DNA of 23,524 nt, from positions 1 through 23,524 of IMG/VR virus record IMGVR_UViG_3300005827_000122, one strand, 5' to 3'. The translations under genes and the position numbers were made by a program. The notes under the pieces were generated by a model, which searched no databases, was not told where the DNA came from, and worked only from the letters and a program-made list of their open reading frames with translations. The stretch comes from a virus. Every line of letters starts with the position of its first letter. The first letter of the stretch is position 1. Below, in pieces: positions 2,113 through 23,351 of the stretch.

Positions 2113-3941
2113 TTCTTCCTCTTCATGGCGGAAGTAAATCCAGGATACAAAGCCTCAAAACCAACTTTGGCTGCTTCAGGTATCGCAACGCCTTCGGTCA
2201 GGTAGCGCCTGCCTGGGCCGGAAAGGATCAACTTGGATAGGGCGTATGGGAGCGCAATCATCCCTGCTGTTCCGGCAGGACCACCAGCTACACCGGCTGC
2301 CCCGCCTGCTGCGATAGTCCCCAACGCCCCGAGAAGCCTCTGCCCCCCAGCAATGGTAGCCGTATTTGATGTGTTGACGATACCGCGTTGCGCCACATCT
2401 GCGACACGCGACAGGCGCATAAGCCGGTTGAACTGCTCAGGCTCAAGAATCTCCTTGAGCGTAGGTTCACCGTACCTTTTAATAACAGAAGAAAGTTTAG
2501 CAGCAGACGGAGGCGAGAAGGCTACGCCGCCACTTCCAACCACCTTCATCTCCACGTCGGAGAACAAGTCGGTAAGGAAGTTGCGACGGAGGACATCAAA
2601 AGCCTCGTTCCCGACGATGGTCTTGAGTTTGGAAATTTTTGTCGTCTGACCAGGAACAAAAAACTTTTTGACAACCTGCTCAGGGGCGTCTTCCATTACA
2701 GAAGCGAACTCTTTACCTACTTTGCCACGAATGACTCCTATTTGCTTACCGTAGAATTTTCGAGCTTCGGCCCAAGCATCCGCAGCGTCAGGACCAGCAG
2801 ACGCGGCCCAATCAGCAATATCATTGTCCAGCGTGTTAAGAAGGCGCTTAAAAACGCCTGCCTTCTGCTGCGCGATAAGGTCTTTTGAGTCTGCAAGCAT
2901 TCGGACGTTTTCTCGCAGCAGCTTCAGGTCGTCATAACTCAACGAACCTCCAGACTCATCAACGATCTTTGATAGTTTGTCAATCGTCTCAGGACTTTGC
3001 GTTTGCAGCCCTGAGACGACGGATTGCTTGATACTGTCCAACTGCTTCTTAAAATTATCCAATGTAATAGGTCTATCACCGGCAAGAGTCCTAGCCTCGT
3101 CAAACTTCTTTGCGGCTTCACTGCGGAACAGCCCGAGCGTCTTCTGCGCCCCGGCCTTAGCCTCGGAGCCAGCAACAGCACCTTCGACCTTGCCACCGGC
3201 AGTTGTAAGAATGTTTTGCACTTCATCCGCAAGGGCCTGCATATTAGCGCCTTGAGCGCGTTCCATTGTCCCGGCAGAGCCTATGGCATTCTTTAGCCCC
3301 CCCTCGATGATCTGCTGACCTCGACCTCCTGTAGCTTGCCCAGGAAGAGGCTTGACGCCCATTGCCTCTGCTTCGCCAAGAACGGCAGCTGCTTCTGGAA
3401 CAATCCCACCAGAAGGGCGCAACACCTTCTGGACCCCAGCGCCAAGGAGCTTGCCCCCAGCTTCTCCGCCAGCGCCAAGCAACGCAGATTCGCCAAGGTC
3501 TGAGGCTATATCCATCGGGGTTTGGTTCTGTTCAACACCCATAGCCCCAGCGATGAGCTTTTTAACGCCTCTACCTGCCGCAGTTCCTACAGCAGCACCA
3601 CCAATTTGACCGGCTGGGCCAAGCGGTGTGCCTGCAACAACGCCAGCAGCCCCACCTACTAACTCAGGAACGTCACCTGCAAAGTCAATGGCGTCAGCCC
3701 ACGACAAGCCTTCCTCGTCAGCCCGACGCCAAGCGCCATCCTTTTTGAAGTAGAATTCACCTGTCTTCTTATTTCTCGCAGCGTTACCGTCTCCGAAAGC
3801 CTTGCGGAGAACGTCCATACGCCCCTCGTCGGTGTCTGCAAACGAGAATAGCGCACGAGTACTGGCGGGGAGTCCGGCCCCCTGTTGCGACGTGGTGTAT
3901 GCAGTATCCGGTGTTTCACCAGTTGGGAACATGGTAAGCAT
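2109..3941 (-). CDS. Ejection (internal virion) protein, P22 gp16-like by position and size
   Basis: A 610-aa protein. The ATG at 3941 forms TGATG with the upstream stop and has GGAG 5 nt before it, so it is preferred over the in-frame start at 3953. Near the N-terminus is a conserved-looking block (RALFSFADTDEGRMDVLRKA, then FYFKKDGAWRRADEEG). It is followed by a long Gly/Ala-rich hydrophobic region (about 90-165), a charged helical middle, and a second Gly/Ala-rich hydrophobic region near the C-terminus (GTIAAGGAAGVAGGPAGTAG). P22 gp16, which leaves the capsid with DNA and acts at the inner membrane, is about 609 aa and occupies the same last place of the gp7-gp20-gp16 trio. I saw no lytic transglycosylase motif. 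The role is inferred from synteny, length and composition. Confidence 0.7.
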   Translation of the reverse strand: MLTMFPTGETPDTAYTTSQQGAGLPASTRALFSFADTDEGRMDVLRKAFGDGNAARNKKTGEFYFKKDGAWRRADEEGLSWADAIDFAGDVPELVGGAAGVVAGTPLGPAGQIGGAAVGTAAGRGVKKLIAGAMGVEQNQTPMDIASDLGESALLGAGGEAGGKLLGAGVQKVLRPSGGIVPEAAAVLGEAEAMGVKPLPGQATGGRGQQIIEGGLKNAIGSAGTMERAQGANMQALADEVQNILTTAGGKVEGAVAGSEAKAGAQKTLGLFRSEAAKKFDEARTLAGDRPITLDNFKKQLDSIKQSVVSGLQTQSPETIDKLSKIVDESGGSLSYDDLKLLRENVRMLADSKDLIAQQKAGVFKRLLNTLDNDIADWAASAGPDAADAWAEARKFYGKQIGVIRGKVGKEFASVMEDAPEQVVKKFFVPGQTTKISKLKTIVGNEAFDVLRRNFLTDLFSDVEMKVVGSGGVAFSPPSAAKLSSVIKRYGEPTLKEILEPEQFNRLMRLSRVADVAQRGIVNTSNTATIAGGQRLLGALGTIAAGGAAGVAGGPAGTAGMIALPYALSKLILSGPGRRYLTEGVAIPEAAKVGFEALYPGFTSAMKRKK

Positions 3942-12361: not shown

Positions 12362-12922
12362 TTAATTCTCCTCGATAGACCGCACCATATTCGACGCGAT
12401 CTTGGTTTTATAGCCATTCGGTTCGTAAAAGTCGGACTTCTCCTTAGAGCGGTAGATGTCCTTCTCCAACTCGGTAGCCCGAGCCTGGATTTCACCCATG
12501 TCCTCGTCGTACCAATCTTTCGGTTTCCGCATGAGAACATGGTTTTCGCCGTTCCCAGCAGGCATGATGCAAGCCTTACCGGGGAGTTTCCCTCTTACGG
12601 TATTGGGAGTGCAAGCCTCCGCTTCACCGTCCACAACGACCTCCCAACCTGCCTGTTCCAGCCGTTCGATACGTCCCGGCCTGTCAACAGGGTTGTAATA
12701 CACAAAGTTGGGGTCCATGTGGTTGTACGTCAAAACGTCCCGCGTGTTCATGGGAACGCGCTTCTTACGTTCGGACGCACGACTTTCACCAGCCTTGGGA
12801 CGAGGACTGTCCTCTTCCTTCTTTGCAAAACGTGCCGCCATACAGACCTTGCACGTCTTGCCATCCTTGCTCATTTCAACCGATTCAGCACCGCACTTCT
12901 TGCAAGACCCTGTGGTCTCCAT
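12362..12922 (-). CDS. Zinc-ribbon phage protein of unknown function in head module
   Basis: A 186-aa protein with an N-terminal treble-clef or zinc-ribbon signature: C7-x2-C10 (CKKCG) and C24-x2-C27 (CKVC). It is followed by a basic, disordered linker (about 30-58) and a mixed domain containing MNTRDVLTYNHMDPNFVYYN and RPGRIERLEQAGWEVVVDG. The tail (about 150-180) is charged and helical. A GGAG site precedes the ATG. It lies between scaffold and the capsid paralogues, so a late or assembly-related role is likely, perhaps as a virion or regulatory protein. No enzyme family was recognised. Confidence 0.7.
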   Translation of the reverse strand: METTGSCKKCGAESVEMSKDGKTCKVCMAARFAKKEEDSPRPKAGESRASERKKRVPMNTRDVLTYNHMDPNFVYYNPVDRPGRIERLEQAGWEVVVDGEAEACTPNTVRGKLPGKACIMPAGNGENHVLMRKPKDWYDEDMGEIQARATELEKDIYRSKEKSDFYEPNGYKTKIASNMVRSIEEN

Positions 12923-12924
12923 GT

Positions 12925-13809
12925 TTAGCTCCTGACCTGAAAGATGGATTCGCTAAGGATTTCCTTGGCGTAATTTTCCTGTGCCTTCTCTAAGCTACCT
13001 GCTCTTTTGAAAATCCCTCTCCGGTAAAGCGCGTCAAACGTCTGCTTGTCCTCCGCAGAGAGGTCAGAGAAACGCTTGCCCTGCTGGGGTGCGGGACGGT
13101 TCCCGGTAGACGGTGCAACGGGCGTCTTTGGAGTCGCCTGCGGCGCGTATCTGCGACCGGCTTCGTTCAGCAACCCGCGAAAATCCTCGGGCATGAGGAC
13201 TCGACCTTCGCTTTGTGCCTTCGTGATAGCAAGGGCAACAAAATTCTGCGCTGCTTCAGTTCTTACCGGATCGCGCTCGAACCAAGTGTTCGCGGCCTTA
13301 AACTCTTCAGCAGCCTTTTGAGCCTCATACGCCAGAGCCTGATGATCGGGAGCAGGTGCAGTATTCCGTGTGCCATTTTCAAGCTCCCGTCGAGCCGCAT
13401 CCGCAGCCTCAAACGTGTTCCAATCACCAGCCTCAAATGCAGCCTTCTGCTTGCCGCGAATTTCCTGAATCTTCTTTTCAGCATCCTCACGGGCAATGCG
13501 CTGGATGTCGTTCATCGCGGAAATCATCTGAGCGCGTTCACGCTCATGCTCCCGCCTGAGTTTGGCGATTTCGTCCTTGAGAGGACGCATAATCTCGCCA
13601 CGCTTCACCCAAGTGTCGGCATCAACCCACTTGTTCGGGTCTCCGCGAAACTCCTCCTTGGGAACCCAGCCTTCCTTACGCGCAACGTCGTCAGAACTGG
13701 GCGTTTCTACAGATGTATTATACTCTTCTTGAGACTGATTATCAACATCATTACTAGCAACCTGCTGCTCGTCGCCAACGGTCATTACCATCGTCTCGTC
13801 GAGTCCCAT
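12925..13809 (-). CDS. Scaffolding protein
   Basis: A 294-aa highly charged protein, close to the roughly 303 aa of P22 gp8. The N-terminus is acidic and Gln/Ser-rich (about 1-40), followed by GWVPKEEFRGDPNKWVDADT and a long helical coiled-coil region (about 75-135, EIAKLRREHERERAQMISAM onward). There is then a helical domain, a Pro-rich linker (about 222-245, TPKTPVAPSTGNRPAPQQGK) and a basic helical C-terminus. In P22-type assembly the basic C-terminal helix-turn-helix binds coat and the scaffold exits before maturation. The position between the co-chaperonin and coat-associated genes, the size and the architecture all agree. The start overlaps the upstream stop as TAATG. Confidence 0.85.
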   Translation of the reverse strand: MGLDETMVMTVGDEQQVASNDVDNQSQEEYNTSVETPSSDDVARKEGWVPKEEFRGDPNKWVDADTWVKRGEIMRPLKDEIAKLRREHERERAQMISAMNDIQRIAREDAEKKIQEIRGKQKAAFEAGDWNTFEAADAARRELENGTRNTAPAPDHQALAYEAQKAAEEFKAANTWFERDPVRTEAAQNFVALAITKAQSEGRVLMPEDFRGLLNEAGRRYAPQATPKTPVAPSTGNRPAPQQGKRFSDLSAEDKQTFDALYRRGIFKRAGSLEKAQENYAKEILSESIFQVRS

Positions 13810-14135
13810 TAGGCGTCCTCCCTACGGATGATGCCAACAATGTCCTCATCGTTGATGACCTTCATAAAGCCCATCTTATCTTCATCGTAGCCGGGGAAAT
13901 CGACCGTCTTCCCGCCGTGCTTCATAAAGATAACCTCGTCGCCCTCGTTGATGCCCCAGGCGTCGATACCGCCAAGTCCACCAGAGAAGGCAGTAGGGCC
14001 GATGGCAACAACAATGCCAACGTCCTGATGCTTGTCCTGCGCCGTGTCGGGAATGTACAGCCCGCCAGCAGTTCGCTTCTCCGGGGGGTTACATTTCACC
14101 AAAATCCTGTGTCCTGCCGGTTCGATCTTGACCAT
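13809..14135 (-). CDS. GroES-like co-chaperonin
   Basis: A 108-aa protein with full-length Cpn10 architecture. It begins MVKIEPAGHRILVK, comparable to the GroES start (..RPLHDRVIVK). It then has the mobile loop NPPEKRTAGGLYIPDTAQ (about 16-33), whose AGG-hydrophobic triplet is the GroEL contact in GroES. AIGPTAF, a short roof-like insert and EGDEVIFMKHGGKTV follow, and the end is KVINDEDIVGIIRRED, matching the GroES C-terminal strand. The start is the ATG at 14135, preceded by GAGGAG 9 nt upstream; an earlier in-frame ATG at 14156 lacks a good site. It overlaps a small upstream gene by 47 nt and its stop overlaps the scaffold start. By analogy with T4 gp31, it probably redirects host GroEL to fold the coat protein. 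Confidence 0.92.
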   Translation of the reverse strand: MVKIEPAGHRILVKCNPPEKRTAGGLYIPDTAQDKHQDVGIVVAIGPTAFSGGLGGIDAWGINEGDEVIFMKHGGKTVDFPGYDEDKMGFMKVINDEDIVGIIRREDA

Positions 14136-14328
14136 ATTCGACTTCTCCTCGCGCATTGTCCTTTGCGCGTTGAATTGCCCCCTGAAGGGCGGCTATTTTC
14201 CCACGCAGATGCGTGGTTTCGTCCCAATCCATACGTCCAACGAGGCAACTCTTGCCGCGATCAACGTCCGACTGCAAGTCGGCTAGAAACTTCTCTGTAG
14301 CAGGGTGTTGCAACCATTCGATCCACAT
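14089..14328 (-). CDS. Small helical phage protein of unknown function
   Basis: A 79-aa protein. The ATG at 14328 was chosen because it overlaps the upstream stop as TAATG; an in-frame ATG at 14349 would overlap by 22 nt. It begins MWIEWLQHPATEKFLADLQS, contains one central helix rich in Ala, Gln and Arg (RGKIAALQGAIQRAKDNARG), and ends in a polar tail. There are no cysteine motifs or membrane span (one Cys only). Small helical proteins like this commonly sit between portal and scaffold in podophages, but I do not recognise a function. The co-chaperonin gene starts inside its 3' end. Confidence 0.66.
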   Translation of the reverse strand: MWIEWLQHPATEKFLADLQSDVDRGKSCLVGRMDWDETTHLRGKIAALQGAIQRAKDNARGEVEYGQDRTGRTQDFGEM

Positions 14329-22660: not shown

Positions 22661-22666
22661 ATTATA
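22661..22666 (-). promoter_or_regulatory. Perfect -10 hexamer (TATAAT) before the late operon
   Basis: The minus strand reads TATAAT at 22666-22661, ending 6 nt before the ATG at 22654. No good TTGACA-like -35 is found 16-18 nt upstream (TCATAA at 17 nt), so an activator bound to the adjacent repeats may replace it. Each upstream repeat also contains CATAAT. Confidence 0.5.
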
Positions 22667-22678
22667 TCACCAACTCGA

Positions 22679-22726
22679 AGCGATTATGACATCCGGCAGC
22701 CGAGCGATTATGACATCCGACGGCCG
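22679..22726. repeat. Two tandem 24-bp repeats plus degenerate third copy
   Basis: Two head-to-tail units (22679-22702 and 22703-22726) match at 22 of 24 positions, including a 17-bp identical core starting AGCGATTATGACATCC. A degenerate third copy, AGCGTATTAT, continues the period at about 22656 and contains the TATAAT. They lie in the 84-bp gap between the metallopeptidase stop and the first late gene. This looks like an operator or activator-site array controlling the late operon. Confidence 0.75.
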
Positions 22727-22738
22727 ATGCTCGACGGC

Positions 22739-23053
22739 TCACCTATACTCCATCGTATCCAACGCCTGCTGCAACAACCCGCCGAGTAGATCTACCAGTG
22801 CCTCATCGGTATGCAGGGCTTCCTCATATTTCCCGGTGTACCCAGCATACAAGAGCCAGTGGACAAGCTCGTGGCAGAAGGTATGGGCCAATTGCTCTTG
22901 GGTTCGACGGATGCCATCCATATTCCGCTGGATTTGAATCTTGTTGGAACGGAAGCAGGCGAGACCGTACGCATCGTCCTCGTGGCGCAGGTCATCGACA
23001 AACTCGACCTCGATGGTTTGGCCTAGCAACTTAAATCGACGGGGGATTTTCAC
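22739..23053 (-). CDS. Zinc metallopeptidase-like protein (HELVH)
   Basis: A 104-aa protein with an HExxH motif HELVHW at residues 61-65 within HTFCHELVHWLLYAGYTG, followed by acidic residues at D83/E84 that could supply the third metal ligand. It resembles the short phage-type peptidases of the ImmA/IrrE or SprT-like kind; the fold cannot be settled by eye. Start GTG at 23053 was chosen because GAGG lies 7 nt upstream and it forms a GTGA overlap with the stop of the upstream zinc-ribbon ORF. A GTG five codons further upstream is weaker. ImmA-like peptidases cleave repressors, so a regulatory proteolytic role is possible. The late-operon control region follows its stop. Confidence 0.8.
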   Translation of the reverse strand: MKIPRRFKLLGQTIEVEFVDDLRHEDDAYGLACFRSNKIQIQRNMDGIRRTQEQLAHTFCHELVHWLLYAGYTGKYEEALHTDEALVDLLGGLLQQALDTMEYR

Positions 23054-23148
23054 GGAATTTCCTCGCACCCTTCAGTCCGACGGTGTTGGCACGACCAGCA
23101 AATATCCGAGCTAAGGTTCGCACAGCCGCAGTTATCGCAGACCCACAT
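23050..23148 (-). CDS. 32-aa zinc-ribbon microprotein
   Basis: The ORF begins MWVCDNCGCANLSSD and has a second pair CWSC: C4-x2-C7 and C17-x2-C20, a complete four-cysteine zinc knuckle, then a short charged tail. GGAGGT precedes the ATG by 4 nt, a near-ideal ribosome binding site. The stop overlaps the GTG start of the metallopeptidase (GTGA). An alternative in-frame ATG at 23178 with GGGGAG 7 nt upstream would give 42 aa. Function is unknown: nucleic-acid or protein binding is typical for such ribbons. Confidence 0.68.
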   Translation of the reverse strand: MWVCDNCGCANLSSDICWSCQHRRTEGCEEIP

Positions 23149-23260
23149 GGCGACCTCCAAGCCGAGATGGACCCACATGGCGACGCTCCCCGCAGTTCTG
23201 GCAGTACGTTGACGGGCGATTTACATACCCGCATTGGCAGGTCCAGGTTTTTGGTTTCAT
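23132..23260 (-). CDS. 42-aa zinc-ribbon microprotein next to tRNA
   Basis: The ORF begins MKPKTWTCQCGYVNRPSTYC and continues QNCGERRH: CxC (residues 8 and 10) then CxxC (20 and 23), a rubredoxin-knuckle pattern with a basic tail. The start lies only 15 nt past the tRNA 3' end, with a weak GAG upstream. It overlaps the second zinc-ribbon ORF by 17 nt in another frame. The Cys spacing resembles the neighbour, and a 15-bp direct repeat links the two, suggesting local duplication. Function is unknown. Confidence 0.6.
   Translation of the reverse strand: MKPKTWTCQCGYVNRPSTYCQNCGERRHVGPSRLGGRHVGLR
23140..23184. repeat. 15-bp direct repeat inside the zinc-ribbon genes
   Basis: GACCCACATGGCGAC occurs at 23140-23154 and 23170-23184, exactly 30 bp apart (10 codons). 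On the minus strand each copy carries ATGTGGGTC, so both contain an in-frame start for the second zinc-ribbon ORF. Confidence 0.85.
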
Positions 23261-23275
23261 GCCGTTATCTCATTT

Positions 23276-23351
23276 TGGGGCCGACTGTCGGACTCGAACC
23301 AACAACCTGCTGATTACAAATCAGCGGCTCTACCGTTTGAGCTAAGTCGGC
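23276..23351 (-). tRNA. tRNA-Thr (anticodon TGT) with encoded CCA
   Basis: A complete cloverleaf is present: a 7-bp acceptor stem (23345-23351 with 23280-23286), D stem GCTC/GAGC, and anticodon stem GCTGA/TCAGC around loop TTTGTAA (anticodon TGT, reads ACA). The variable loop has 5 nt and the T stem is GTTGG/CCGAC around TTCGAGT. The 3' CCA is encoded at 23278-23276. The first two acceptor pairs are G1-C72 and C2-G71, which are known threonine identity elements. The discriminator is C73, unusual for tRNA-Thr. The first zinc-ribbon ORF begins 15 nt downstream. It is either a phage tRNA or a host tRNA at a prophage edge. Confidence 0.95.

Follow-up and report, generated by a model that had tools for sequence, protein, structure and literature searches.

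Gene order at the right end of the window

The window, i.e., the entire stretch of 23,524 bases that was analysed, is a single virus record and represents a podovirus-like phage fragment. The window portal and major head proteins return profile matches to PF23899 and PF10124, respectively, while the TerL protein exhibits 24.5-39% identity to that of annotated phages, including Vibrio phage VA-RY-3 (39%) and Burkholderia phage BcepC6B (35%). The capsid gene cluster also contains a GroES-like Cpn10 gene (PF00166, E 2e-15), the product of which may be a co-chaperonin that assists the phage in head folding, as well as a gene whose 186-aa product carries a four-cysteine motif at its N-terminus and has no Pfam match.

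Near the right end, the minus strand carries a tRNA-Thr(TGT) gene followed, after 15 nt, by two genes for four-cysteine (C4) microproteins, designated ZnR1 and ZnR2, and by the gene for an HExxH peptidase (Table 1). The coordinates of the cassette and the lengths (42, 32 and 104 aa) of these three open reading frames (ORFs) are as given in the original prediction, and the tight coupling that it described is also borne out: ZnR1 and ZnR2 overlap, while the TGA stop codon of ZnR2 and the GTG start codon of the peptidase are shared as GTGA. Between the peptidase and the next gene lie two 24-nt direct repeats and an extended -10 element. The latter, TGATATAAT, is the only TGnTATAAT in the window and immediately precedes the ATG of a 133-aa gene. 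This region is a likely promoter/operator of the packaging-head operon, in agreement with the earlier placement of the three genes just before a late operon control region.

Table 1. Features of the window discussed in the text.
Feature	Coordinates	Strand	Basis
tRNA-Thr, anticodon TGT	23276..23351	-	ARAGORN; Rfam RF00005, 66.4 bits
ZnR1, 42-aa C4 zinc-finger microprotein, RanBP2/NZF-like (predicted)	23132..23260	-	ORF, motif null, AlphaFold2
ZnR2, 32-aa C4 zinc-finger microprotein (predicted); alternative start 23178, 42 aa	23050..23148	-	ORF, Shine-Dalgarno
104-aa HExxH metallopeptidase, phrog_1233; predicted zinc ligands H61, H65, probably E84	22739..23053	-	
15-nt direct repeat, ZnR2 start region doubled	23140-23154 + 23170-23184		
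Likely packaging-head operon promoter/operator: two 24-nt repeats (22679-22726) and TGATATAAT (22669-22661)	22661..22726	-	consensus match only
GroES-like Cpn10 gene	13809-14156	-	PF00166
186-aa protein, N-terminal four-cysteine motif	12362-12922	-	

Two overlapping four-cysteine microproteins

ZnR1 begins with ATG and contains a C-x-C...C-x2-C arrangement within the motif WTCxCGxxNx5CxxCG. ZnR2 has two in-frame ATG codons, of which that at 23178 (Shine-Dalgarno GGGGAG) yields 42 aa, while that at 23148 (Shine-Dalgarno GGAGG, 5-nt spacer) yields 32 aa and is the best ZnR2 start; the overlap with ZnR1 is 47 or 17 nt, respectively. A 15-nt repeat is read in two frames in this region, being responsible for a doubled RHVG tail in ZnR1 and for the two Shine-Dalgarno/ATG starts in ZnR2. 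Upstream, the ZnR2 frame stays open no further than 23223, and a single two-finger protein produced through a frameshift inside ZnR1 is possible in principle.

The two microproteins have the motif W-x-C-x(1-2)-C-G-x-x-N-x5-C-x-x-C in common. When 200 dinucleotide-shuffled versions of the window were searched for a strict form of this pattern (W.C.{1,2}C.{3}N.{4,6}C.{2}C, in ORFs of 28-120 aa), none contained it, against two adjacent and overlapping ORFs in the real sequence; a looser C4 pattern occurred 0.145 times per shuffle. The zinc-finger pattern of the two microORFs is far above chance, and metal binding, as originally proposed, is probable. The evidence for coding is uneven. In synonymous codon usage ZnR2 resembles coding sequence, ranking at the 50th percentile of coding windows and the 98th of spurious ORFs, while ZnR1 is weaker (15th and 78th percentiles, respectively). 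Raw codon scores, which are confounded by the Cys-rich amino-acid composition, are non-coding-like: among spurious ORFs, ZnR1 ranks at the 35th percentile and the 32-aa ZnR2 at the 52nd. No close homologue was found for either microprotein, and no significant match in phage records.

Searches of Pfam, PHROG and NCBIfam returned no family above chance for ZnR1 or ZnR2; in particular, neither the RanBP2-type family PF00641 nor the SprT zinc-ribbon models in Pfam were matched at E up to 5. The best PDB sequence match of ZnR2 is the RBM10 finger (2mxv), at a non-significant E of 0.24. A profile constructed from ZnR1, ZnR2 and similar microproteins of two other viral loci (L053 and L031) matched PDB entry 8s05 (E 0.0012) and ArnA (E 0.0042), the N-terminal domain of the latter being a RanBP2-type zinc finger according to an excerpt of PMC6509490. 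Furthermore, Foldseek comparison of the ZnR1 AlphaFold2 model (pLDDT about 80-88 across residues 1-30) placed RanBP/NZF fingers, a fold of two orthogonal hairpins with a C4 site, in five of the top seven rows, at 0.7-1.6 A and with E above 1, as expected for a very small domain; the neighbours, none of them significant by E value, include Trabid NZF1, RanBP2, Nup153 and ZRANB2. Based on these profile matches and structural neighbours, the predicted domains, although they do not formally match PF00641, are better described as RanBP2/NZF-like fingers than as the zinc ribbons of the original prediction. The ZnR spacing corresponds to the RanBP2 consensus minus one residue. ZnR1 and ZnR2 are probably a tandem duplicate pair, an idea that rests on the common motif since their pairwise alignment is not significant. 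A defence library gave no useful match (ZnR1 to PDC-S64, E 0.0097, weak).

A probable minimal HExxH peptidase of the phrog_1233 family

The peptidase starts with GTG, is preceded by GAGG and contains the motif HELVH. An alternative GTG at 23068 would yield 109 aa; the start at 23053 is favoured because the nearest relatives begin at or near K-I-P. Residues 2-101 match the phrog_1233 profile (E 1.6e-10), for which no curated cut-off exists, and all ten relatives scanned against this profile also match it. The closest relative found is about 51-53% identical. In an alignment of 19 sequences, from which L026 and L030 were omitted as near-duplicates and L045 as divergent, the HExxH motif and a downstream Glu are invariant in all 19; the phrog_1233 proteins examined are stand-alone, at 95-131 aa. 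The invariant H, E, H and downstream E are what a one-metal zincin requires, and this is the ground on which the protein is read as a minimal zincin that is probably catalytically active, in line with the predicted HExxH peptidase.

Similarity to named families is limited. The SprT-like family PF10263 matches with E 0.001 and 19.4 bits, which is below the gathering score of 25.6 bits, while no IrrE/ImmA (M78) model in Pfam or NCBIfam matches at E up to 5. When a genome collection was scanned using the alignment of the peptidase, a single weak partial match was returned, in Ruminococcus. A zinc ribbon on the same chain is a feature of the SprT-like family; the 39 residues that follow the HExxH of the window peptidase do not include a Cys, and thus no such ribbon is present.

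In the AlphaFold2 model (pLDDT 84, pTM 0.80), helix 52-71 carries H61, E62 and H65, and helix 84-100 begins with the invariant E84. The model thus presents, with predicted metal ligands, an HExxH helix followed by a helix bearing a third-ligand Glu, the arrangement expected of the broad zincin superfamily. It is matched by models of phage ‘SprT-like’ proteins (E 1.6e-7, TM 0.83/0.86), and twelve viral models, named SprT-like or peptidase and in several cases unnamed, have E values at or below 0.001. Among solved structures (PDB), Foldseek returned no match at E <= 0.001. VIA-align Z scores were 7.1 for IrrE (3dte; rmsd 3.5, 85 aligned), 6.3 for 1oz9, 6.1 for both CapP and PprI, 6.0 for Wss1, 5.9 for ArdC and 5.5 for Spartan, all of them under 8, a range in which a match may reflect a common arrangement. 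Our reading of the predicted fold is that of an IrrE/SprT-like zincin domain in minimal form.

Distribution of the three genes among other phages

Twenty-one peptidase loci besides the window were examined (L002, L003, L004, L006, L025-L027, L029, L030 and L035-L046), these representing fewer independent contexts because of near-duplicates (L025-L027, L029/L030 and L036/L037). Of 31 Javan384-type records, 10 were retrieved. In none of the 21 do the 300 nt upstream of the peptidase contain a same-strand C4 microORF. Loose proximity does occur, as the Cellulophaga phages (three of the 21, of one lineage) possess a C4 55-aa ORF 0.8-1.2 kb upstream of the peptidase, and L041 a C4 ORF 337 nt downstream. 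L002 accounts for another two C4 rows, both of them ORFs that lie out of frame within its portal and peptidase genes.

In the converse direction, a DNA pattern with the ZnR1 spacing, which also matches the window itself, identified 26 viral loci, in 11 of which the match falls within an ORF of at least 24 aa. A phrog_1233-like ORF was found near the motif in none of these 26, within the DNA fetched. The clearest motif locus, L053, encodes a stand-alone 37-aa microprotein that is very like ZnR1 (2590-2703, minus strand). A pattern with four-residue N-to-C spacing identified a further stand-alone microprotein with a similar motif (L031) and a bacterial-type protein with a C-terminal finger (L032).

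Relatives of the window phage were also sought through its structural genes. TerL relatives were found at 15 loci, seven of which include at least 5 kb upstream of TerL, and none of these carries a phrog_1233-like ORF; the major capsid scan returned no locus, and no close relative of the window phage was found. A conserved ZnR-ZnR-peptidase cassette was rejected for distant relatives. The co-occurrence result weighs heavily against a general system but only lightly against a pairing confined to the lineage of the window, since the relatives are distant (at best about 51-53% identity for the peptidase). A recent lineage-specific pairing of the ZnRs with the peptidase is improbable.

The neighbourhood of the peptidase is variable among the 21 loci. 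For example, portal or minor-head genes lie beside it in L002, L003, L036, L037, L039 and L040, and a gene for the terminase small subunit lies downstream in L043 and, with one gene between, in L006. In L029, L030, L035 and L038 the peptidase gene is directly upstream of an exonuclease gene (phrog_69 or phrog_298), which makes a DNA-linked role for the phrog_1233 family possible. A VRR-NUC nuclease is encoded near the peptidase in L004, while L042, L044 and L046 exhibit lysogeny-type genes of a repressor/antirepressor region.

Interpretation of the gene arrangement

The trio probably represents independent accessory genes that are packed by translational coupling before the packaging-head operon and that do not form a module. 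This is the simplest account, as the association of ZnRs and peptidase is absent elsewhere. Start and stop codons commonly overlap in phage operons, which gives co-expression, and translational coupling fixes co-expression, not a shared complex. The original prediction had proposed a joint function, i.e., a proteolytic switch with metal-binding adaptors, and had itself set relatives that keep the peptidase without zinc ribbons as the result that counts against it; this is what the 21 peptidase loci display, and the 26 motif loci, which are free of the peptidase in the DNA fetched, agree. A joint module, in which the ZnRs act in trans as adaptors that target or activate the peptidase, as in a Spartan/SprT-like enzyme split into coupled genes, is consistent with the overlapping ORFs and GTGA coupling, the weak PF10263 match of a peptidase that lacks its own ribbon, and the presence of Spartan and Wss1 among its nearest folds. 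It is nevertheless improbable in view of these two absences, the stand-alone nature of phrog_1233 proteins and the lack of a SprT zinc-ribbon match for either ZnR. Its most specific form, a split Spartan-like protease comprising a bare zincin and two coupled microproteins that serve as substrate- or nucleic-acid-binding fingers, targeting the protease or switching it on, is very unlikely. A literature search, which had most subscription papers outside its reach, found no description of a system with this composition.

Two further accounts were considered. The peptidase may aid virion assembly or maturation by cutting a head or packaging protein, the microproteins being unrelated; it lies just before the packaging-head operon in the window and beside or near portal, minor-head or terminase genes in eight of the 21 loci, and for jumbo phages it has been proposed that a zincin-like peptidase takes part in virion maturation (excerpt of PMC7824862). 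Exonuclease or repressor neighbours in other phages do not fit a conserved structural role, and we consider this account unlikely. It is also conceivable that one or both microORFs are untranslated and that the peptidase is the sole gene, as their low raw codon scores, the intermediate synonymous score of ZnR1 and the lack of a significant homologue in phage records would suggest. This is very improbable given two adjacent ORFs with a pattern that never arose in the shuffles, the strong Shine-Dalgarno and coding-like synonymous codon use of ZnR2, and the occurrence of a microprotein with the same motif in another virus (L053).

According to the favoured reading of independent but coupled genes, three accessory genes, one of them duplicated, would occupy the interval between the tRNA gene and the packaging-head promoter, and the overlapping start and stop codons would couple their translation on one message downstream of the tRNA gene. 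As conservation and the fold model suggest, the two His of HELVH and the Glu on the next helix would hold one metal, while the Glu of HExxH would, by the general zincin mechanism, activate water. In the infected cell, the peptidase would most likely cut a regulatory protein of the host or a protein bound to DNA, given that the nearest solved folds (IrrE/PprI, CapP, ArdC, Wss1 and Spartan) are largely DNA-linked. Host-protein targets have been proposed in published reviews for SprT-like and ArdC-like phage peptidases (PMC7824862), while the zincin domains of phage polyproteins have been proposed to act in self-processing or on host targets (PMC5512222). ZnR1 and ZnR2 would be single-domain C4 fingers, most likely binding RNA or a protein, as RanBP2-type fingers do in cases cited in an excerpt of PMC6509490.

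Small phage zincins of phrog_1233 are widespread, are listed as of unknown function and lie beside packaging, nuclease or lysogeny genes. The present analysis provides this family with a specific and testable candidate identity, that of a minimal HExxH+E zincin with a predicted IrrE/SprT-like fold. Pairing with zinc fingers does not extend to the family in general. Were it functional in the window, it would constitute an unusually small protease-plus-adaptor module, but the evidence points to ordinary gene packing.

Comparison with known systems

The window peptidase most resembles the other phrog_1233 proteins (phage, about 100 aa, function unknown), with which it has in common its length, a whole-protein profile match and the same HExxH...E; unlike it, the relatives examined are without coupled zinc-finger microproteins. 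To SprT-like proteins, Spartan and Wss1 (PF10263; WLM, PF08325) it bears weak similarity around the HExxH, and Wss1 and Spartan are among its nearest folds, but it is much shorter, has no zinc ribbon of its own and falls under the Pfam gathering score. The IrrE/PprI, CapP and ImmA-type protease domains, likewise with HExxH and a downstream Glu, are the best fold matches (3dte, 7t5t and 8sln, with Z scores of 7.1, 6.1 and 6.1, under 8 as above), yet the matched IrrE/PprI/CapP chains are 240-278 aa in length, whereas the window protein is a stand-alone domain without a Pfam or NCBIfam IrrE/ImmA match. The zincin-like MPTases of polyvalent proteins and ArdC also possess HExxH and a Glu on the next helix (6sna, Z 5.9, again under 8); as described in an excerpt of PMC5512222, these are domains of large polyproteins, in contrast to the separate 104-aa protein of the window.

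The microproteins exhibit the same W-x-C-x(1-2)-C-G-x-x-N-x5-C-x-x-C as the RanBP2/NZF fingers of ZRANB2, RBM10, Trabid NZF1 and ArnA, and the ZnR1 model lies within 0.7-0.9 A of the Trabid NZF1 and RanBP2 fingers over 25-26 columns. Unlike these fingers, ZnR1 and ZnR2 are stand-alone, of 32-42 aa, and without a PF00641 match. They can be likened, by description, to the one-domain zinc-finger micro-proteins of Haloferax, which are similarly stand-alone and under 70 aa but are archaeal cellular genes (excerpt of PMC6562870).
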